Part shown: positions 1,527 through 62,080 of the stretch, in pieces
Layout: each line of letters opens with the position of its first letter
Position numbering within the stretch: position 1 is the first letter of the stretch
Origin: a virus
DNA length: 64,000 nucleotides
IMG/VR virus record: IMGVR_UViG_3300008267_000011
Span: 30,416-94,415 of that record
Strand: one strand, 5' to 3'
Position numbers and translations under genes: made by a program
Notes under the pieces: model-generated
Told to the model about the DNA's origin: nothing
Seen by the model: only the letters and a program-made list of their open reading frames with translations
Databases searched by the model: none

Positions 1527-4500
1527 TTAATAAAGTTAAGACAAGCTTAAAGAAGGTTGACAAAATCCTTCACATTGCGGATGTTCACATTCGTAACTGG
1601 AAGCGCCATAAAGAATACAAGTTGGTATTCGATAAATTATTCGAAGCAGCAAAGCAACTGCCAGAGGATTCCATCATTACTATTGGTGGAGATATTGTAC
1701 ATGCTAAGACCGATATGAGCCCAGAGTTGATTCACATGGTATCTTACCTATTCAACAACTTAGCAGACATCAGACCGACGATAGTAATTTGTGGTAACCA
1801 CGATACCAATCTGAACAATAACAATAGATTAGATGCTTTAACACCTATTATTGAAGCACATGGGCATCCTAACTTGTTTTATTTAAGAGACAGTGGTGCT
1901 CATAAGATTGGTGACGTAATGATCAACATAATGTCGTTACTCGACGATCCAAAGGAGTATAAGTTAGCCGATGCGTTAATAGGAAAAGCTGATACTTTAA
2001 TTGCTATGTACCACGGAACTATTGCAAATAGTAAGGTGGATAGTGGATTAAACATTGCACATGGATTAGACTGGGACACCTTTGCTGGACATGATATAGT
2101 TCTACTTGGAGACATTCACAAAAGACAAATCCTTAGCGACGCTAATCCACTAATATTCTATCCTGGAAGTACTGTTCAGCAGAACTTTGGAGAATCTTAC
2201 GAAGGGCATGGGTATGCCATCGTCGATGTGGCGAGTAGAACGGTTGAGCACTTCGACATTCCAAACGACTACGGATACTTTACATTTGAAATTAAAGACG
2301 GAATTGTACCTGACAACTTACCAATCACATCCAAAACGAGCGTAAGAGCAAAGGTTTACAACACATCACCAGCACAACTGAAAAAGGCACTAGCCGAGGT
2401 AAGAAAGAAGTATAAGAATGGAGAGGTGCTTGTTACCAACATGGACAAAAGTCAGATACAAAATGGTCTTAAAATAGACGATACATTGCATGGTTTAGAT
2501 GTTAGAAATGTAGACTACCAAACGACGCTACTAAAGGAGTACTTGGATCAATTCCACTTAGAGGAGGAGTTGGTTGATAAGATTATTAGCACCAACAAAG
2601 GATTCAACTCAGCTGTAATATCAGGCGAATTAGTGCGTAATGTTGTATGGACTCCAAAGAAGTTTGAGTTTGATAATATGTTCTCATATGGTGAGGGCAA
2701 CGTGATTGGATTTGACAACCTCAATGGCATATGTGGATTGTTTGCACCAAACCATGCAGGTAAGTCAGCTACATTAGATGCATTATGCTTTTGCTTATTT
2801 GACCACTCCTATAGAGCAAGCAAAGCTGAGCAGGTGCTTAATAGAAAGAAAGATGGCTTCTGGTGTCGTTTTAACTTTGAATTAAACGGATTAGACTACT
2901 ATATCGAAAAGAGAGCTGCAAGGTACCAAAAGGGACCTTTGGCTGGAAAATTGCGTGTGGATATTGATTTCTGGTATGTTGACCATGAAGGGCAGAAGCA
3001 TTTACTAAATGGTGAGCAGAGAAAGGACACTAACCGAATCATACAATCGTATGTTGGATCCTTTGACGACTTTATTCTAACAGCATTATCGCTTCAAGGT
3101 AACAACAGTAGCTTCATTGAGAAAACTCAAGGGGAGCGAAAGGATTTGCTAGCAAACTTTTTGGACCTAAAGATTTTTGACAACCTATACGAGTTAGCAA
3201 ACAAGGAAATCAGAACAACAACAGTGCTGTTAGAAGAGTACGAAAAGCAGGACTTTGAGCAATCGTTAGGAGATGCTCAACGATCACTAGAAACTAACGA
3301 GGAGTTGTATAAGGATAAGTTTGCCGAGTATGAAAAGGTACAAGAAGCAATTCAAGACCTAAACGATCAAATCATCAAATTATCCGAGCAAATCAAGCCA
3401 ACTGAAGCAGATGGATTGGATTTACCAAACCTACAAACTCAACAGACCTCTTTGGAGAAAGAAGTTGAGTCCAAGATCAATGACCAACAAACAATACAAG
3501 ACAAGATCAATGCAGTCAATGCAGAAATTGGTAGACTTGACCAGGAATTTAACAAAACCGATGTAGGTGAGGTACAATCAAATTACGCAGACTTCTGCAT
3601 GATGCTGTCACGTAAAACTGAGTTGGATACAAAACTACAGCACTATAAAGTGACAATCTCAACTAAGCTAGATAAGCTTAAGAGATTAGAAGAACACGAG
3701 TACGATCCTAACTGCAAGTACTGCGTCGAGAATGTATTTGTTAAGGATGCAATCAAGACCAAGCAAGAGCTTGATGAGGATAAGAAGCACGTAGCAGAGT
3801 TCCTTAGTGAAAGAAAGCAAGTAGAGGAATATGTCGAAAAGTATAAGGATATCGAAGAGCAGTACAAGTACTTTGAAGGAATAGCGACTGAGAAGCAAAG
3901 GTTGACAAATGGATTGAGTGTTTTAGATTCCAAACTAGAGTCAATTGATAGCCAAATACAGACGTATAGGGCTAAATTAGAGCGGGTAGAATCGAGTATC
4001 AAGACGTACAATGACAACTTAGCTACAATTGAGACAAACAGCTCTTTAAACAAGTCTATTAAGGTTTTACGAGAGCAAGCAACTAAGACCAAACAACAAG
4101 CTGAAACGCTAAATAAGGAGGCTCAAAACTATCACGGAAAGGTAAAAGTTAGTGAGAAGGTAATTAGTGAGTGTGAAAAGAGCATTAGGCATATGCAAGA
4201 GCTATCAGAAAAGCAAATAGCTTACGACTATTACCTAAAAGCAATGGGTCGTGATGGGATACCATATTCTCTAATCAGCAAAGCAATACCATACATCCAA
4301 TCCTACGTCAACAACATCCTAGCTCAGGTAACCGATTTCACAATCGAGATTGAGACTGACGGTAAAAACATCAATGTACATATCTGCTATGACGATAATA
4401 AGTGGCCATTGGAATTAGCTTCTGGAATGGAGAGATTTGTTAGTTCGCTTGCTATTCGTGTAGCTTTGATTAAGATCACCAACCTACCAAAGCCTAACTT

Positions 4501-46282: not shown

Positions 46283-46771
46283 ATGGCAAACCTAATAGAA
46301 AACGACAAAATGTTCTACACACCTTACGAACCTAAGGTGCAGAACAGATTCATACTACAAGTTGATGGTATACCTTCTTTCATTATGAAGAAGGTATCCC
46401 GTCCACAAATTGAATGTGGAGAAGTAGTATTGGACCACATTAACATTATCCGTAAAGTAAAAGGAAAATGTAAGTGGGGAGATATCACAATGACACTTTA
46501 CGATCCAATCGTACCATCAGGTGCCCAAGCTGTAATGGAGTGGGTACGTACTCAACACGAATCAGTAACTGGTCGTGATGGATATGCAGACTTCTACAAG
46601 AAGGACTTTGATATCTTCGTATTGGGTCCTGTTGGAGATAAGATCGAGAACTGGAAAGTTAAAGGTGCCTACATCAAGACTGCTCAGTTTGGTGATTTAG
46701 ACTGGTCTACTGAGACTCAAGTTGAGATTCAATTGACCTTAGCGGTAGACTACTGCGTACTAGAGTACTAA
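46283..46771 (+). CDS. 19: tail tube protein, gp19
   Basis: The 162-residue protein matches T4 gp19 (163 aa) over its whole length: NRFILQVDGIPSFIMKKVSRP at the start, MTLYDPIVPSGAQAVMEW in the middle and the DLDWSTETQVEIQLTLAVDY ending. Stacked hexamers form the DNA conduit inside the sheath. A strong terminator follows. Confidence 0.95.
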   Translation: MANLIENDKMFYTPYEPKVQNRFILQVDGIPSFIMKKVSRPQIECGEVVLDHINIIRKVKGKCKWGDITMTLYDPIVPSGAQAVMEWVRTQHESVTGRDGYADFYKKDFDIFVLGPVGDKIENWKVKGAYIKTAQFGDLDWSTETQVEIQLTLAVDYCVLEY

Positions 46772-46858: not shown

Positions 46859-47722
46859 ATGAGCAACAAAGTTGTAAACGATGCTTACCCAAGCAGACCA
46901 GTAGTTACAGACGAGGACCTAAAGGCCCAATTCACTCAAGACTACGTTACCGAAATCAATACAAAATACGATGGTCCAACAGAGATCATTGATTTACCAT
47001 CCAGAGGATACTTTTATCCAGCAGGACATCCACTAGCAGAAGGAAAGATTGAGATCAAGTACATGACAGCTAAGGAAGAGGATATCCTTTCTTCTCAAAC
47101 TTTAATCAAACAAGGAGTCGTTATTGACAAGCTGTTGCAATCGTTGATTGTTACTAAGGTTAAGTACGATGATTTGCTTCTGGTAGACAAAAATGCAATT
47201 TTCATTGCAGCTCGTGTATTAGCATACGGAAATGATTATCCAGTAGACGTAACATGCCCTGCATGCGAGTCTAAGCAAAGCGATCACGTTGATTTATCTA
47301 GCTTTGAAGAGAAGCAAATTGACTGGAGTCAGTTTGAGAAGGGTAAGACTACCTTTGAATTTACCTTACCGGTAACTAAGAAGGTTTTAACCTTGAAGTT
47401 CTTGACTCACGGAGATGATAAGCAAATCACAGAAAACCTTAAAGCAGCTAAGAAAGTTTCTAAGATGACTGGAGTTGATCCAGAGTTAACAACACGTCTA
47501 CGTCAAATGATTGTTGCCATTGATGGAAATGAGGATAAAGCTGAGATTCACAAGTTCTCACAGAACATGCTCTCTCGTGATAGCCTAGCTCTTCGAGAGT
47601 ACATGAAGTCCATAACTCCAGACATCGACACCACATTCCACTATGAGTGCGGTAACTGCGGACATGAGGTACCAAAGATGGCTATGCCCATCACGGTGCA
47701 GTTTTTTTGGCCTGGGGTCTGA
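46859..47722 (+). CDS. 26: gp26-type baseplate hub / tail assembly protein (zero-frame product)
   Basis: The 287-residue protein fits the T4 gp26-type baseplate family: LPSRGYFYPAGHPLAEGKIEIKYMTAKEEDIL near residues 47-77 and DKNAIFIAARVLAYGNDYP near residue 110. A zinc-like CPAC (with a second CGNCGHE near the C-terminus) could form a four-Cys site. In synteny it lies between tube and tape measure, where many tailed phages encode tail assembly chaperones. The frame ends at TGA 47720-47722, shortly after a run of seven T at 47702-47708. The natural continuation of the family lies in the +1 frame, so a frameshift is likely. Confidence 0.75.
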   Translation: MSNKVVNDAYPSRPVVTDEDLKAQFTQDYVTEINTKYDGPTEIIDLPSRGYFYPAGHPLAEGKIEIKYMTAKEEDILSSQTLIKQGVVIDKLLQSLIVTKVKYDDLLLVDKNAIFIAARVLAYGNDYPVDVTCPACESKQSDHVDLSSFEEKQIDWSQFEKGKTTFEFTLPVTKKVLTLKFLTHGDDKQITENLKAAKKVSKMTGVDPELTTRLRQMIVAIDGNEDKAEIHKFSQNMLSRDSLALREYMKSITPDIDTTFHYECGNCGHEVPKMAMPITVQFFWPGV

Positions 47723-47912
47723 TTATCGGCCCCTAATCTACGACCAGATCTTTGATCTGATGTATTTTGGCAAAATGGGATTCACTTACACTGAGTTGTA
47801 CCATATGCCAGTGTTCCAGAGAAGGTACTATTACACTAAGTTAACAGACTATCTCAAAAAACAAAACGAAGCAGAGCAAGCAGCTGCTAACAAAGCTAAA
47901 AGAGGAAGATAA
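47643..47912 (+). CDS. frameshifted C-terminal extension of the gp26-type protein
   Basis: This frame is +1 to the upstream gene and overlaps its last 80 bases. The protein-like part begins right after the T7 run (SDYRPLIYDQIFDLMYFGKMG, then YHMPVFQRRYYYTKL) and ends in a Lys/Ala-rich tail, about 65 residues in all. The upstream part of the frame reads as noise, so translation probably enters by a +1 or -2 ribosomal slip at TTTTTTT (47702-47708), giving a product of about 350 residues. Alternatives are reinitiation at an internal ATG near 47760, or a homopolymer sequencing error. A terminator follows directly. Confidence 0.65.
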   Translation: MSAVTADMRYQRWLCPSRCSFFGLGSDYRPLIYDQIFDLMYFGKMGFTYTELYHMPVFQRRYYYTKLTDYLKKQNEAEQAAANKAKRGR

Positions 47913-47968: not shown

Positions 47969-48280
47969 ATGAAAAAATCCGATTTGCATAGAATAATACG
48001 AGAAGAGATTCAAGACCATCTCATCGAAGAGGGAATTGTCAACTGGCTAATCGATAAGGCAGAGACTTTCGTAGTTAATGCGCTGAATCATAAAGCAGAC
48101 TATCAATACGCTCGCTTAATGAACAGCCCAGACTTCAGAGCTCTGCATAAAAAATTTGGAATGAGAGAGGATGAGTTTTTGCGTAAAGCTAAGGAGATGG
48201 TAAAAAGAGATCCAGACAAGTTTGCAAAACTCCTTGCGTTTGACGCATCTAAGAGTAAATGGGCTAAATTCATAAAGTAA
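47969..48280 (+). CDS. small basic protein with tag-like N-terminus
   Basis: The ATG at 47969 is chosen over an upstream TTG at 47942, which would overlap the TATTTAT box. The 103-residue product starts MKKSDLHRIIREEIQDHLIEEG, an amphipathic helix with I/L-x-E sites (IRE/E, LIE/E) that resembles 15783's N-terminus. The remainder is helical and basic (RKAKEMVKRDPDKFAKLLAF). Its position before the tape measure would suit a tail or chaperone role, or it may be another head-tagged protein. Undecided. Confidence 0.5.
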   Translation: MKKSDLHRIIREEIQDHLIEEGIVNWLIDKAETFVVNALNHKADYQYARLMNSPDFRALHKKFGMREDEFLRKAKEMVKRDPDKFAKLLAFDASKSKWAKFIK

Positions 48281-48284
48281 TTAG

Positions 48285-50939
48285 GTGAGCAAGAAAGCAA
48301 AAATAAACGCTGATCAAGTTGATTTTACAGACCTTGGTGCTGGTCTAGCTAAAGTAGTAGCTGACGCCTTTCAAAAAGGAGCAACTAAGGGAGCAAAAGC
48401 AATGTCGAGCGCTCTATCAGGAGAGGGCGACTTGCTAAAGTCTATTAACGACGAAATTGACAAAATTAACAAGAAAAAGCAAGATGAGCTAAAGACGGAG
48501 AAGATACTAGCTAAAGCCCTTCAAGATAAGATATCAGCAGAGCGTGCAGCACTGCAGTTGGCTATTGAAGAAGAAAAGCAGGCAAACCTAGCAGCAATAG
48601 CACAGACAAAAATGAATGCAGCTGTTGCTAAGCGTCTAATGCTAAATGCTGAGATAATGGGTAACATGAAAGCCTTTTATGGCTATCAAGAACGTATGTC
48701 TCAATTAGAAGCAGATATCACAGGACTTGAGGATCGTAACACCGCTTTAGAGCAGCAAGGAAAGTTGTTGGATGACCTCATGGACAAGGAGGAGAAGAGG
48801 GATGCGTTAGAAGAGAAGAGGGAAAAAGTCCTAGAGAAGATGAAGGAGGTAAAGCACCATCTAAAAGAACAAATAGGATATACACAAGAACTAGCGGACC
48901 TACTCAAGACTCCAGAGCTGGCCAAAGCTCTTTTTGCAGAGCAAATGGCTGAAAAGCTTCACGAAGCTTACGAGGGAATGGAGGAGTTTAAAAAAGAGGG
49001 ACTATCAGCAGGTCAAGCTATACAGGCACAATTTAAAGGATTGAGTCTGAAATCAATGATGGGCTTATCAGACACTAAGGGAGCTCTTAAGGGATTTGCA
49101 CAAGAATACGGCTCTATAGGTGGAATTTCAAAAGAAGTAGTCAACGAAGTCGGTATAATGGCTCACCACTTTGGTATTAGTGGTGAAGAAGCCGCTAAAC
49201 TCAATGCAAGCCTATCAAAAATACCAGGAGAAACTTCCGAATCCGCTGCACATGCAATGGAGATGACCGGTCACTTAGCTGAAATGCAAGGAATAGCTCC
49301 TGGTAAGATTATGAAGGATATGGCTGGTAATACAGCTGAGATGGCTCGCGCAGGAGGCAAGGGAGCGGAGGCATTTGGAAAGAGTGTTATCAATCTACAC
49401 AAGATGGGAGTTGAGATGTCAACCGCTAGTAAAATAGCAGATGGCTTGTTGGATTTTGAATCTAGGATAAATAACCAAATGGAGGCTTCAGTCTTACTAG
49501 GTAGAGAAATAAATCTAGATAAGGCTGCTGAGTTGGCGTTGCACAACGACTTAGAAGGGGCTACTGCGGAAGTTTTAAAAAACATAGGAGGGGCTGCTGA
49601 GTTTACAAAAATGAACCGTCTTGAACAAGATGCTCTAGCCAAAGCGGCAGGAATGACTGTTGAAGAGATGAATAAGGCGCTTGATGCGGCAGAAGAGCAG
49701 AACAAGTATTTTGGCGAGCAATCTAGCACACTCGACAACATAATAGGCCAGACTATGGAAATTGGAGGTGGAATTACTAAGTTTGCAAAAGAGAATGCTG
49801 TGTGGATGCTCTCCACTGTACAACTATTAGGCCAAATGAATTTAGGAAAGATTAAGCAATACGCCTTAGATATAGCACATTGGGCCAAAGAAAAGGCTCA
49901 GTGGGCCGCAGAGAAGGCGCATTGGCTTTGGAAAAGAGCCCAAGCTGCTATGGGTCTTGGTGGAGGAGGAGCAGCAGCCGCAGGAGGAGCAGCAGCCAAA
50001 GTGGCAGGAGGAGCAGCAGAGACAGCAGGCAAGCTAGGAGCTGCAGCAAAAACAGCACCATCACCAGCCGCAGGAGCAGGTGTAGCAGGATTTTTAACTG
50101 GATTAGCAACAGGCTTAAAGGCTTTTGATGGGAAAGCTCTCAAAGGAGCGGCGTTTATGGCAGGAGCTGCGGTGTTGTTTGGAGCTGGTATAGCGGCATT
50201 AGCTTACGGACTATCATTCATCCCATTACCAGACCTATTGGTAGCAGCAGTGGCGTTGCCAGTATTTGCAGGTGGATTCTTCTTACTGTCCAAGGTAATG
50301 GGTAAAATAAATGTTGGAGCTGTGGCACAAGGGTCATTGGCGTTAATCCTTCTAGGAGCAGCGCTAATTCCAGCAGCCTTTGCCTTTAGTTTATTAAAAG
50401 GTGTGGATGTTGGATCGATAATAGCCTTTAGCATAGCACTACCATTGCTAGCATTGGCAGCAGCTGGACTTGGATTCTTATTCCCATTCATAGCTGCCGG
50501 AGCAGCTTCGTTGGCACTATTAGGAATCGGAATGATTGCAGTAGGAGCTGGATTGTTGGTGTTGCAAAGTGCTCAAGGAGGTTTGGAGGTGTTTGGCAAA
50601 TTAACCGAGCTTGCATCAGGAGCAATGGGATTAGGTAGTGTAGCAATGGCGTTAATGGGAATTGGAGCAGGCTTAGGATCAATAGCAATTGCGGGATTTA
50701 CAGCAATGCCAATCTTAGGAATGTTAATTGGATTAGCAGCTGCAGCCCCAGCACTAACTGGATTAGCAAGTGCTTTAATGGGAGGTGGCGGTGAAGGTGA
50801 GAAGAGCGATAAGATGGATGAACTCATAGCTGAGGTAAAGTCTCTAAAAGCAGAGATGGCAAACATAACAGTGAACTTAGATGGTAAGAAAGTAGGAGAA
50901 GCGTTACGTGGATCAATGAACACAAGTAGAATTAGATAA
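48285..50939 (+). CDS. tail tape measure protein
   Basis: The 884-residue protein starts at GTG 48285. Residues about 35-230 form long coiled coils (EEKQANLAAIAQTKMNAAVAKR; EKREKVLEKMKEVKHHLKEQ). Residues about 240-530 are helical with Ala/Gly/Met-rich segments. Residues about 555-850 are strongly hydrophobic Ala/Gly/Leu helices (ALPVFAGGFFLLSKVMG; SLALLGIGMIAVGAGLLV). A short coiled end follows. This layout and the place after tube and chaperone-type genes are typical of tape measures, which set tail length and enter the host envelope. It is longer than T4 gp29 (590 aa). Confidence 0.8.
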   Translation: MSKKAKINADQVDFTDLGAGLAKVVADAFQKGATKGAKAMSSALSGEGDLLKSINDEIDKINKKKQDELKTEKILAKALQDKISAERAALQLAIEEEKQANLAAIAQTKMNAAVAKRLMLNAEIMGNMKAFYGYQERMSQLEADITGLEDRNTALEQQGKLLDDLMDKEEKRDALEEKREKVLEKMKEVKHHLKEQIGYTQELADLLKTPELAKALFAEQMAEKLHEAYEGMEEFKKEGLSAGQAIQAQFKGLSLKSMMGLSDTKGALKGFAQEYGSIGGISKEVVNEVGIMAHHFGISGEEAAKLNASLSKIPGETSESAAHAMEMTGHLAEMQGIAPGKIMKDMAGNTAEMARAGGKGAEAFGKSVINLHKMGVEMSTASKIADGLLDFESRINNQMEASVLLGREINLDKAAELALHNDLEGATAEVLKNIGGAAEFTKMNRLEQDALAKAAGMTVEEMNKALDAAEEQNKYFGEQSSTLDNIIGQTMEIGGGITKFAKENAVWMLSTVQLLGQMNLGKIKQYALDIAHWAKEKAQWAAEKAHWLWKRAQAAMGLGGGGAAAAGGAAAKVAGGAAETAGKLGAAAKTAPSPAAGAGVAGFLTGLATGLKAFDGKALKGAAFMAGAAVLFGAGIAALAYGLSFIPLPDLLVAAVALPVFAGGFFLLSKVMGKINVGAVAQGSLALILLGAALIPAAFAFSLLKGVDVGSIIAFSIALPLLALAAAGLGFLFPFIAAGAASLALLGIGMIAVGAGLLVLQSAQGGLEVFGKLTELASGAMGLGSVAMALMGIGAGLGSIAIAGFTAMPILGMLIGLAAAAPALTGLASALMGGGGEGEKSDKMDELIAEVKSLKAEMANITVNLDGKKVGEALRGSMNTSRIR

Positions 50940-58516: not shown

Positions 58517-59662
58517 ATGGCAAAGAAGTCAGTAACACCGGATGAGATTTCCGGAAGAGATGAGCTTGCATCATTGTTAGCAGATAGTCTCAACAAAAAG
58601 TTTAAAGACTTCAAAGCTGCCCATTTTCTTAATGGGCAAGAGGAAACTCCAACCGATTTAACAGAGTGGGTCTCAACCGGATCCACTTTGTTAGACTTGG
58701 CTATCTCAAACAGACCTAACGGAGGATTTCCAGTAGGTCGTATTGTAGAGTTGCAAGGGATGGAGGCTTCAGGAAAAAGCTTGATCATGGCACACGTATT
58801 GGCTAACACACAAAAGAAAGGTGGATTGGCTGTGTACATTGACACTGAGAATGCTTTAAGTGAAGAGTTCTTAAAGGCTATTGGAGTAGACGTAAACAAC
58901 ATGCTTTACATCCCATTGGAAACAATTGAGGATATCTTTGAAGCAGTTGAGAACATTATCGAAACAGTTCGTAAGAGTTCCAAAGACAGATTGGTTTCAA
59001 TCGTTATTGATTCTGTATCAGCAGCTACAACTAAAATTGAGCAAGATGCAGATTACGATAAGGATGGATGGGCAACAGCCAAAGCAATCGTAATGTCGAA
59101 AGCTATGCGTAAGATCACTAACGTGATTGGAAAGCAGAGAGTTTTACTACTATGCGCATCACAGCTTCGTGAGAAGATGGGTGTAATGTTTGGAGACAAG
59201 TACACTACCTCTGGTGGTAAGGCTTTAGGATTCCATGCAAGTTGTAGAGTAAGGCTTAAAGGAGTCGGTAAGTTGAAGAGCGGTTCGGGTAAGACTGAAC
59301 AGATCATTGGTGTGCAAACCGAAGCTCAAGTTATCAAAAACAGGATGGGACCTCCATTCAAGAAAGCCACATTCGATATCTATTTCAATTCAGGAATCGA
59401 TGATCAGAATAGCTGGTTAGCTTTGATGAAGGACTACGGAGTCGTTAGTACCTCAGGATCCTACTACACCTTAGTAAACGAAGAGACTGGAGAAGTTCAT
59501 CGCTTCATGTCTAAAGAGTGGAAGGAGCTATTGGCAACTAACCAAACTCTCTACGACTACTCGTATAGAAAGATATGCGATATCTTCATTATGAAGTACA
59601 AGGGAGACAATGACATTGATCCAGACAGTGTAACAGTTGATGACGATGAGCTCGCAGACTAA
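58517..59662 (+). CDS. uvsX: UvsX recombinase (RecA-like)
   Basis: The 381-residue protein matches T4 UvsX (391 aa) and RecA. It forms filaments on single-stranded DNA and drives strand exchange for recombination-dependent replication and repair. The Walker A is GMEASGKS with K87-S88, the Walker B region is VSIVIDSVSA, and the family motifs DTENAL, LLCASQLREKMG and YTTSGGKALGFHA (loop 2 region) are present. The C-terminus is acidic (DPDSVTVDDDELAD). It lies directly after gp32 and overlaps the exonuclease gene. Confidence 0.95.
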   Translation: MAKKSVTPDEISGRDELASLLADSLNKKFKDFKAAHFLNGQEETPTDLTEWVSTGSTLLDLAISNRPNGGFPVGRIVELQGMEASGKSLIMAHVLANTQKKGGLAVYIDTENALSEEFLKAIGVDVNNMLYIPLETIEDIFEAVENIIETVRKSSKDRLVSIVIDSVSAATTKIEQDADYDKDGWATAKAIVMSKAMRKITNVIGKQRVLLLCASQLREKMGVMFGDKYTTSGGKALGFHASCRVRLKGVGKLKSGSGKTEQIIGVQTEAQVIKNRMGPPFKKATFDIYFNSGIDDQNSWLALMKDYGVVSTSGSYYTLVNEETGEVHRFMSKEWKELLATNQTLYDYSYRKICDIFIMKYKGDNDIDPDSVTVDDDELAD

Positions 59663-60695
59663 TTATCTAGCTCTTCTAAACGAACTACGAACAAGAGGAC
59701 CCGAAGATAACCTGCACCTTAATTCAAGGGTGCTGGTTATTGACGGCCTTAATACTTTCATTCGTAGTTATGCAGCGAGTCCTGTGACCAATAGTGACGG
59801 AGAGCACGTTGGCGGAATCTCAGGAACACTACTAAGCATAGGCCATGCCATTAAGAATATCGCACCTACAAGGGTGATTATGGTATTTGATGGCAAGAAT
59901 GGCTCTGCTAAAAGACGACAAATCTACCCAGAGTACAAAGCAAACAGAAAATTCAAGATTAGATTGAATCGATCAGAAGTGGTTGATAAACAAGACAATC
60001 AACTTGAGCAACTTATACGAGTAATCCAATACTTGGAGAACCTACCAATTACGGTTATTACAGCAGAAGCAACAGAAGCAGATGATGTGATTGCGTATAT
60101 TGCAAATGACTACCTTGCACAGAAGCAGGATAGTCAGGTGTTCATCATGTCCTCAGATAAGGATTTCTACCAGTTAGTAAACGATAGAATCCACATTTGG
60201 AGTCCTACCAAGAAGAGATTCTACTACACAGAGGATGTTCATACTGAGTATGGAATATACCCACGTAATTTTGCTTTATATCGCGCTTTACTTGGTGATA
60301 AAAGCGATAACATAGGAGGAGTGGATGGAATTGGTGAGAAGACTGTACAAAGCAAATTTAACCTTCTAACAGAGGATAAACAGGTATCTTTACAGGAGCT
60401 AAAAGACTTCGCATCCGCGCAACCACCTAAGGTTAAAATCTACCAAAAGTTTCTTGAAGCCGAAGAGCTAATAGAACGCAACATTCAGTTAATGCAGCTT
60501 TCAGAGAGCAACATTAACACCACAGTCAAATTGAGAATCATTGACACACTAGAGCAAGAGATTCCAAGATGCAATAAAATAGCAATCCATAAGATGATCC
60601 TTGAAGACAAGATGTCTGGAGCAATTAAGAATCCAGATACTTGGCTAAGAGAGGTGTTTCAAAAATTAGATGGATTTGCTTTGCAATCACAATAG
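59646..60695 (+). CDS. rnh: 5'-3' exonuclease / RNase H (FEN family)
   Basis: The product (349 aa from ATG 59646; ATG 59640 and TTG 59637 also possible) is a FEN-type flap nuclease like T4 RNase H (305 aa), which removes RNA primers on the lagging strand. The acidic motifs are VIDGLNTF, VFDGKNGSAKRR, EATEADDVIAYI, SSDKDFYQL and LLGDKSDNIGGVDGIG (helix-hairpin-helix-like). It overlaps the uvsX end by 17 bases and lies before the helicase. Confidence 0.9.
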   Translation: MSSQTNYLALLNELRTRGPEDNLHLNSRVLVIDGLNTFIRSYAASPVTNSDGEHVGGISGTLLSIGHAIKNIAPTRVIMVFDGKNGSAKRRQIYPEYKANRKFKIRLNRSEVVDKQDNQLEQLIRVIQYLENLPITVITAEATEADDVIAYIANDYLAQKQDSQVFIMSSDKDFYQLVNDRIHIWSPTKKRFYYTEDVHTEYGIYPRNFALYRALLGDKSDNIGGVDGIGEKTVQSKFNLLTEDKQVSLQELKDFASAQPPKVKIYQKFLEAEELIERNIQLMQLSESNINTTVKLRIIDTLEQEIPRCNKIAIHKMILEDKMSGAIKNPDTWLREVFQKLDGFALQSQ

Positions 60696-60711
60696 TTTTA
60701 GACTATATTAA
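60680..60711 (+). promoter_or_regulatory. putative host-type promoter TTTG-N20-TATATTA
   Basis: TTTG at 60680-60683 and TATATTA at 60704-60710 are 20 bases apart, inside the end of the exonuclease gene and just before the helicase ATG at 60716. Confidence 0.4.
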
Positions 60712-60715
60712 AGTT

Positions 60716-62080
60716 ATGAGTTCAGACACAATACAAAGATACGGAACAAGCTTCCAAGCAAAGGTTTTGGCAGTCCTAATGAAGGATAAGCCATTCTTGC
60801 AGCAGATCAGCGATTTGCTTGATCCCGACTATATGAGCTCCGATGCTTCAAAGTGGATAGCAAGAACGATACTAGAGTACCATAAGCAATACAAAACGAC
60901 ACCTACATTAGATGCGTTGAAGGTCCATGTGGAGTCTATTGAAGTTGACGTATTGAAAGCAGCTGTAGTAATGCAGTTGAAAGACATTATGTCCTATCTA
61001 GATGCTGATGATGTGCAGTTTGTTAAGGACCAGTTCCTAAACTTCTGTAAGAATCAAAAGCTAAAGAATGCTATCTTAGAAAGTGTTGAGTTGTTGAAAG
61101 GTGGTAAGTACGATGAGATTAAGGCTAACATTGATAATGCAATGAAAGCTGGAAGTGATCGTAACATTGGCCACGAATACAACGAAGACGTTGATGCACG
61201 ATACGAAGCTAATGTACGACATCCAGTAGAAACTCCATGGGAAGTTGTTAACGAGATCATGGATGGTGGATTAGGAAAGGGTGAGTTGGGAGTGTTTGTA
61301 GCACCAGCTGGTATTGGTAAGTCTATGGCATTAGTCAGTATTGCTGCAGCAGCAGTTGAAAGAGGGCTTAATGTCGTATACTACACAATGGAGTTGGCAG
61401 AAGGGTATGTTGGATCTCGATTCGACTCCTACTACACAAACATTCCTTCACAAGACCTCAAGTTTCATATCGATGAAGTTAAGGATGCTGTTGGTAAGCT
61501 GAAAGGTAATCTAATCATCAAGTACTATCCTACTAAGACGGCTACAGTTGGTACACTAACTGCCCACTTAGAGAAGTGCTTGATGCAAGGATTCAAACCA
61601 GATATTGTGCTTGTTGACTACGCTGACTTGTTAAGAGAAACAAACGTAAGCTCTAACAAAAGACATGACCAGGCATTAGGAAGTATCTATGAAGACCTTA
61701 GAGGTTTATCAGGTACTTACGGATTCCCAGTATGGACAGCATCACAAGCAAACAGATCAGCTTTGGAAGATGACATCATTGGTGCAGAGAAGATTGCAGA
61801 ATCTTATTCTAAGGTAATGATTGCCGACTTTGTAGTGTCTCTGTCTCGTAAAACTACTGATAAGATTAGTGGTACAGGAAGATGGCACGTTATTAAGAAT
61901 CGTTTTGGTCCTGATGGACTTACGTTCCCAAGTAAGATGAACATGAGTGTGTGTAAGATTAACATATTTGCAGAGAACACAATTGAAGGAATCGACACAA
62001 AAAAGACAATGGCAAATCACGAAGAAGTATTAAAGAGTACATTAAGAAACAAGTTCCAAGAATTGCAAGGATTAGTATAA
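60716..62080 (+). CDS. 41: replicative DNA helicase, gp41 (DnaB-like)
   Basis: The ATG at 60716 (MSSDTIQRYG) is chosen because the upstream part of the open frame overlaps the exonuclease gene and reads as noise. The 454-residue protein matches T4 gp41 (475 aa). The N-terminal helical domain (1-160) is followed by the RecA-like motor. The Walker A is APAGIGKSM with K202-S203, then YYTMELAEGYVGSRFDS, Walker B DIVLVDYADLL and WTASQANRSALE. The hexamer unwinds DNA ahead of the fork and works with the gp61-type primase at 603. Confidence 0.92.
   Translation: MSSDTIQRYGTSFQAKVLAVLMKDKPFLQQISDLLDPDYMSSDASKWIARTILEYHKQYKTTPTLDALKVHVESIEVDVLKAAVVMQLKDIMSYLDADDVQFVKDQFLNFCKNQKLKNAILESVELLKGGKYDEIKANIDNAMKAGSDRNIGHEYNEDVDARYEANVRHPVETPWEVVNEIMDGGLGKGELGVFVAPAGIGKSMALVSIAAAAVERGLNVVYYTMELAEGYVGSRFDSYYTNIPSQDLKFHIDEVKDAVGKLKGNLIIKYYPTKTATVGTLTAHLEKCLMQGFKPDIVLVDYADLLRETNVSSNKRHDQALGSIYEDLRGLSGTYGFPVWTASQANRSALEDDIIGAEKIAESYSKVMIADFVVSLSRKTTDKISGTGRWHVIKNRFGPDGLTFPSKMNMSVCKINIFAENTIEGIDTKKTMANHEEVLKSTLRNKFQELQGLV

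Follow-up and report, generated by a model that had tools for sequence, protein, structure and literature searches.

In phage lambda, the tail assembly chaperones gpG and gpGT arise through a −1 frameshift, and phage Mu is reported to use a −2 shift. The lambda gene and its −1 counterparts in long-tailed phages lie between the tube and tape measure genes and give a short form plus a frameshift-extended form with a small C-terminal extension. T4 has the hub assembly chaperones gp26 (short) and gp51 (long), homologous to the family studied here, as two separate genes in opposite orientation, and we found no open −1 continuation in the T4 gp26 gene. Separate short and long chaperone genes in T4-like phages have been published by Vladimirov et al. 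2022 (cited in PMC10885494 and PMC12846349), who are also credited with poly-T −1 signals in T4-like phages (PMC12846349). We had considered the separate T4 genes as an unreported finding and dropped this, as they are already in that study. In the literature, with Vladimirov et al. 2022 covered through the papers citing it, we found no report of a +1 clade or of a switch in direction. As for +1 shifts, the chaperone of the haloarchaeal myovirus HSTV-2 very likely uses one, and UUU_Ynn has been described as especially +1-prone in bacteria, the RF2 site being CUU_U (PMC5009743).

The locus described here belongs to a T4-like water phage and lies in a window of 64,000 nt, which is the whole stretch of DNA analysed. 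It very probably encodes a T4-type tail assembly chaperone made in two forms through a +1 slip at a run of seven T. Where T4 has two genes, one gene here would yield both forms. The features, all on the + strand, are as follows.

46283 to 46771, + strand, tail tube gene (gp19-like), the upstream neighbour (PF06841, E=1e-6; phrog_4542, E=1e-28)
46859 to 47722, + strand, ORF1, the short form (TAC-N, gp26-like), 287 aa (PF12322, phrog_150, AF2 model)
47702 to 47713, + strand, putative slippery site TTT TTT TGG CCT, nearly invariant over 75 distinct loci
47709 to 47912, + strand, ORF2, the predicted C-terminal (T) extension in the +1 frame, 67 aa (+1 frame kept in 77 of 80 relatives)
47714 to 47733, + strand, RNA hairpin GGGGUC (47714 to 47719) / GGCCCC (47728 to 47733) (fold z, compensatory changes in relatives)
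48285 to 50939, + strand, probable tape measure protein, 884 aa, GTG start, the downstream neighbour (position, size, hydrophobic/coiled-coil make-up)

ORF1 matched PF12322 (T4_baseplate) with E=5e-14 (52.9 bits, curated cut-off 24.5) and phrog_150 'baseplate hub' with E=4e-17; PF12322 also matched 44 of 48 aligned long-form relatives at E <= 0.01. Its zero frame ends CAG TTT TTT TGG CCT GGG GTC TGA, with the T run at 47702 to 47708 and the stop codon at 47720 to 47722, in agreement with the preliminary description. The continuation that it had placed in the +1 frame from the T run reads ..SFFGLGSDYRPLIYDQIFDLMYFGKMGF... and stays open until 47912, and translation of the fused ORF1 and ORF2 gives a long form of 350 aa. 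ORF2 had a weak match to phrog_634 'baseplate hub assembly catalyst' (E=0.13). The string TTTTTTTGGCC occurs once across the 94-kb IMG/VR virus record containing the window, and an Rfam search around the slip site returned no relevant match. The position between tube and tape measure genes, also proposed earlier, stands on the tube side by PF06841; the 884-aa ORF had no family match among phrog and Pfam profiles, so that its label as tape measure gene is probable from its position, size and make-up. A small ORF (MKKSDLHRIIREEIQDHL...) lies at 47970 to 48280, between the extension and this gene. Elsewhere in the window, two long ORFs (59637 to 60695 and 60641 to 62080) have TTG as the listed start codon and run into the genes before them; their true starts may be downstream.

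The two halves were modelled separately and confidently by AF2, with pLDDT of 88.5 (ORF1) and 86.7 (ORF2), the latter as three helices. In the structure search the ORF1 model resembled many predicted phage gp26/baseplate hub proteins. It had no significant match among solved structures, the HK97 chaperone 2OB9 being listed at E=3.1 and probability 0.18, and a sequence-based search of solved structures found no relative. The ORF1 family PF12322, with zinc-ribbon-like motifs, differs from the lambda type. All matches of the ORF2 model were weak; among them was the 'tape measure chaperone' of phage Moogle (E=2.1).

The preliminary description had proposed consulting homologues on whether the split and the T run are conserved, and they are. 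Scanning IMG/VR resulted in 80 relatives, all 80 split at the same conserved FF motif, with the extension in the +1 frame in 77 and in the −1 frame in three (L066, L073 and L079). Using tblastn, the same arrangement was recovered in isolate phages (Microcystis phage Mel-JY01, Flavobacterium phages immuto, Rhodothermus phage RM378, Bacillus SP-15, Listeria LIS04 and Streptococcus GXN1), all with a +1 extension immediately after the conserved Phe-Phe (Phe-Leu in immuto). A scan of genome contigs added the +1 form on four bacterial-genome contigs, which are probably phage, and one GC-rich −1 locus. IMG/VR scans with the Paride, SP-15 and RM378 proteins as queries gave few or no new lineages. In immuto (L002, 3136 to 3246) and SP-15 (L005, 3755 to 3874), small hypothetical proteins are annotated within the extension region.

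The junction was characterised over the 75 distinct +1 loci. Upstream of it, codons vary most at phase 2, the zero-frame wobble (H=1.87 bits at −30 to −6), and downstream at phase 0, the +1-frame wobble, with phase 2 the least variable. The flip takes place at TTTTTTTGGCCT, which is itself nearly invariant. The first +1 codon after the run is GGC in 69 loci, ACC in five and ATC in one, and the second is always CTN. Pairwise identity in the +1 frame is 17 % upstream of the T run vs 43 % after it, in line with the earlier remark that the overlapping start of this frame reads as noise. Because the +1 frame is not conserved there, the ATG at 47643 is incidental.

The site itself reads TTTTTT|TGGCCT in 62 loci, TTTTTT|TACCCT in five and TTTCTT|TGGCCT in four, while TTCTTT, CTTTTT, GCTTTT and TTTTTT|TATCCT occur once each. 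YUU followed by U is present in all 75 loci, the outgroups retain UUU_Y (UUU_C in L003 to L005, UUU_U in RM378), and at the LIS04 site, TTT TTT AGT, re-pairing one base downstream is possible at the first UUU only. The sites have in common a P-site YUU with U or C after it, so that a tRNA can re-pair one base downstream. At both Phe codons the wobble base is T in 99 to 100 % of the +1 loci, with TTT making up 78 % of Phe codons elsewhere. The T at −6 to −4 are 97 to 99 % conserved, more than a single +1 slip at the second codon requires; on seven T, slipping at either UUU would lead to one and the same protein, a possible reason for both codons remaining UUU.

In 27 of the 75 loci, the window and 26 others, a GC-rich hairpin follows the T run by 6 to 7 nt; in the window its loop holds the UGA stop codon of ORF1. 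The segment 47708 to 47767 folds with z=−1.9. Five of the seven stem pairs show double compensatory changes among 17 loci with a 7-bp stem and a 4-nt loop. The covariation score of these loci was 0.499 vs 0.229 ± 0.032 for shuffled and 0.013 to 0.113 for slid alignments, and as the loci were selected for having the hairpin, it speaks of covariation among them and not of prevalence. Across the +1 loci, the region just downstream had a mean z of −1.2 against shuffles, with z below −2 in 29 % of loci vs 3 % upstream. Folding downstream of the cyanophage loci is stronger (mean z −2.4). A search of the +1 group for a Shine-Dalgarno-like stimulator found none; a strong Shine-Dalgarno-like stretch lies 8 to 16 nt before the heptamer of the cyanophage −1 loci. 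In L107 to L186, 54 of 69 Glu codons of the EGL motif are GAG, vs 30 % GAG elsewhere, giving a Shine-Dalgarno-like GAGGG before the −1 site.

Relatives with −1 extensions allow a comparison of direction. The cyanophage-type loci have U_UUU_UUC with a −1 extension in 80 of 80 cases, and so do the jumbo phages Atu_ph07, GAP32, 121Q, RaK2 and Paride and Vibrio EniLVp02; in the jumbo phages XacN1 and CM1 the extension is also −1 and the heptamer ends in UUU. At our locus no canonical −1 heptamer (X XXY YYZ) with ORF2 in −1 was found, ORF2 being in +1 and the base before the run not being T. Position −7, just before the run, is T in none of the 75 +1 loci, where amino acid and codon usage would predict 30.7, and the count is still zero after clustering at 60 % identity (26 clusters). 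A T there would create the −1 heptamer U UUU UUU. The only members of the +1 clade with T at this place are the three nested −1 members (L066, L073 and L079), whose site is AAT TTC TTC. These three and L193 (near 3160 to 3205) have a −1 extension even though TTC TTC is a non-canonical −1 heptamer. A quick ML tree on the ORF1 part (79 rows) required two changes between +1 and −1, the first separating the large groups and the second a nested switch to −1, with deep placements unsure because of long branches (RM378, LR756511 and EniLVp02).

In the same tree the T4-type gp51 sequences form one group. Aligned by hhalign, the T4-type gp51 family matched the cyanophage fused long form over its full length (probability 99.2 %, E=1e-19), the first part of gp51 matched the gp26 family (99.3 %), and T4 gp26 matched the first part of the cyanophage fused form. 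All long forms pooled matched gp51 along its length (98.4 %), and the +1 group of the window alone only weakly (47 %, E=2e-4). The gene that S-PM2 and EniLVp02 list as gp51 or 'baseplate hub assembly catalyst' corresponds to gp26 extended in −1, being that extension itself. Cyanophage gp51 is annotated as a separate 57-aa gene in S-PM2 (L106, 13191 to 13364) and L107 to L186, but 21 of the 58 distinct loci have no ATG in that frame near its beginning, and it looks like a mis-annotated −1 extension of gp26.

Other explanations of the split have to be weighed against a +1 slip. One is a sequencing or assembly error or an inactivating frameshift, homopolymers being error-prone. The identical split, seen in all 80 contigs from IMG/VR as well as in isolate genomes of several laboratories, some of them without a homopolymer, excludes chance or homopolymer error and leaves that reading a practically negligible probability; the split gene is, as far as the sequences tell, a conserved genetic signal. 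Hardly more credible is that ORF2 is a small gene of its own, with its own start or coupled reinitiation. An ATG in the ORF2 frame does occur at some loci, and S-PM2 is so annotated. However, 38 of the 75 +1 loci have no ATG, GTG or TTG for ORF2, neither in the upstream open stretch nor in the first 12 codons, which makes an independent start unavailable there, and 13 of 58 cyanophage loci likewise have none in reach. Moreover, conservation starts at the slip site, the slippery bases are constrained, and T4 gp51 is a full-length long form.

RNA polymerase slippage would produce mRNAs minus one base or plus two. We consider it very unlikely, if marginally less so than a separate gene. Most loci do have a homopolymer run, but seven T are shorter than the runs usually needed, and the frame relation is kept at sites with an interrupted or short run (TTTCTTT, TTCTTTT, GCTTTTT, AACTTTC and TTCTTTC). 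Slippage of the polymerase also fails to account for why T is avoided at −7, where it would extend the run, and for the covariation in the hairpin. A −2 slip of the Mu type, reaching the same frame with one Phe added, is the strongest of these rivals and still improbable. Seven T would let the P-site UUU re-pair two bases upstream, and the conservation at −6 to −4 would suit this. However, re-pairing would meet TCT in L028 (TTC TTT T) and L004 (TTC TTT C), CTT in L063 (GCT TTT T) and ACT in L003 (AAC TTT C), all with the frame relation unchanged, which argues against −2; the nearly universal shared core is YUU_Y. The earlier alternative of a +1 or −2 shift thus tilts to +1, −2 lacking good re-pairing in these four variants.

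A programmed frameshift in this gp26-type gene, suspected before, is strongly supported by the conservation, the phase switch, the constrained site, the missing starts and the covarying hairpin; from sequence alone, little stronger support could be had. We infer that slippage occurs, its +1 direction and efficiency, the roles of the stimulators and the function in assembly, along the following lines. Most ribosomes would make the short form of 287 aa. A minority with tRNA-Phe on UUU in the P site would slip +1, from 47705–47707 to 47706–47708, and the first UUU (47702 to 47704) would be equally able to slip, giving the same protein. Slow decoding of the next codon, UGG, and the hairpin 6 nt downstream are probable stimulators. 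The slipped ribosomes would read GGC CUG... and add the 67-residue helical T extension. By analogy with gpG and gpGT, the short part may coat the tape measure protein and the extension may recruit tube subunits.

The lambda analogy, already drawn in the preliminary description, is apt, with the difference that lambda shifts −1 and the shift here is into the +1 frame at UUU_U. HSTV-2 likewise would shift +1 into its T extension, but is an archaeal virus. With the RF2 (prfB) site CUU_UGA and with UUU_Ynn the locus shares a P-site YUU that would slip +1 onto UUU or UUC, and five of our loci have CUU_UGG; unlike at RF2, the A site holds a sense codon, no Shine-Dalgarno-like stretch directly precedes the site, and some loci have a downstream hairpin instead. 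As far as the citing papers describe them, the poly-T −1 sites of other T4-like phages are likewise at the 3′ end of the short-form gene. With these sites and the short and long genes of T4 already described, frameshifting in a T4-like gp26-type gene, which had been thought notable, is not in itself without precedent. The difference is that those sites are −1, and here the shift is +1 with the −7 base excluding a −1 heptamer.

We regard it as an even chance that the +1 loci carry a distinct cassette, consisting of UUU UUU U, a hairpin in part of the clade and exclusion of U before the run, and that direction has switched in evolution. The exclusion of U would then suppress −1 shifting, and the family would have −1 shifting in cyanophages and jumbo phages, +1 shifting in our clade with a return to −1 in one group nested within it, and two genes as a replacement in T4.

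By its sequence features the locus appears to use a +1 variant of the known G/GT mechanism of tail assembly chaperones, and its T4-like clade has −1 relatives for comparison. This also corrects the annotation of many T4-like phages, whose records divide the long chaperone between a 'baseplate hub' gene and one called 'hypothetical' or 'gp51'. With 75 distinct sites of the +1 kind and 58 of the −1 kind, one gene family offers a large and diverse natural series. As direction changes while the FF motif of the protein stays, the long-standing question of what determines the direction and efficiency of slippage at UUU codons becomes directly testable.
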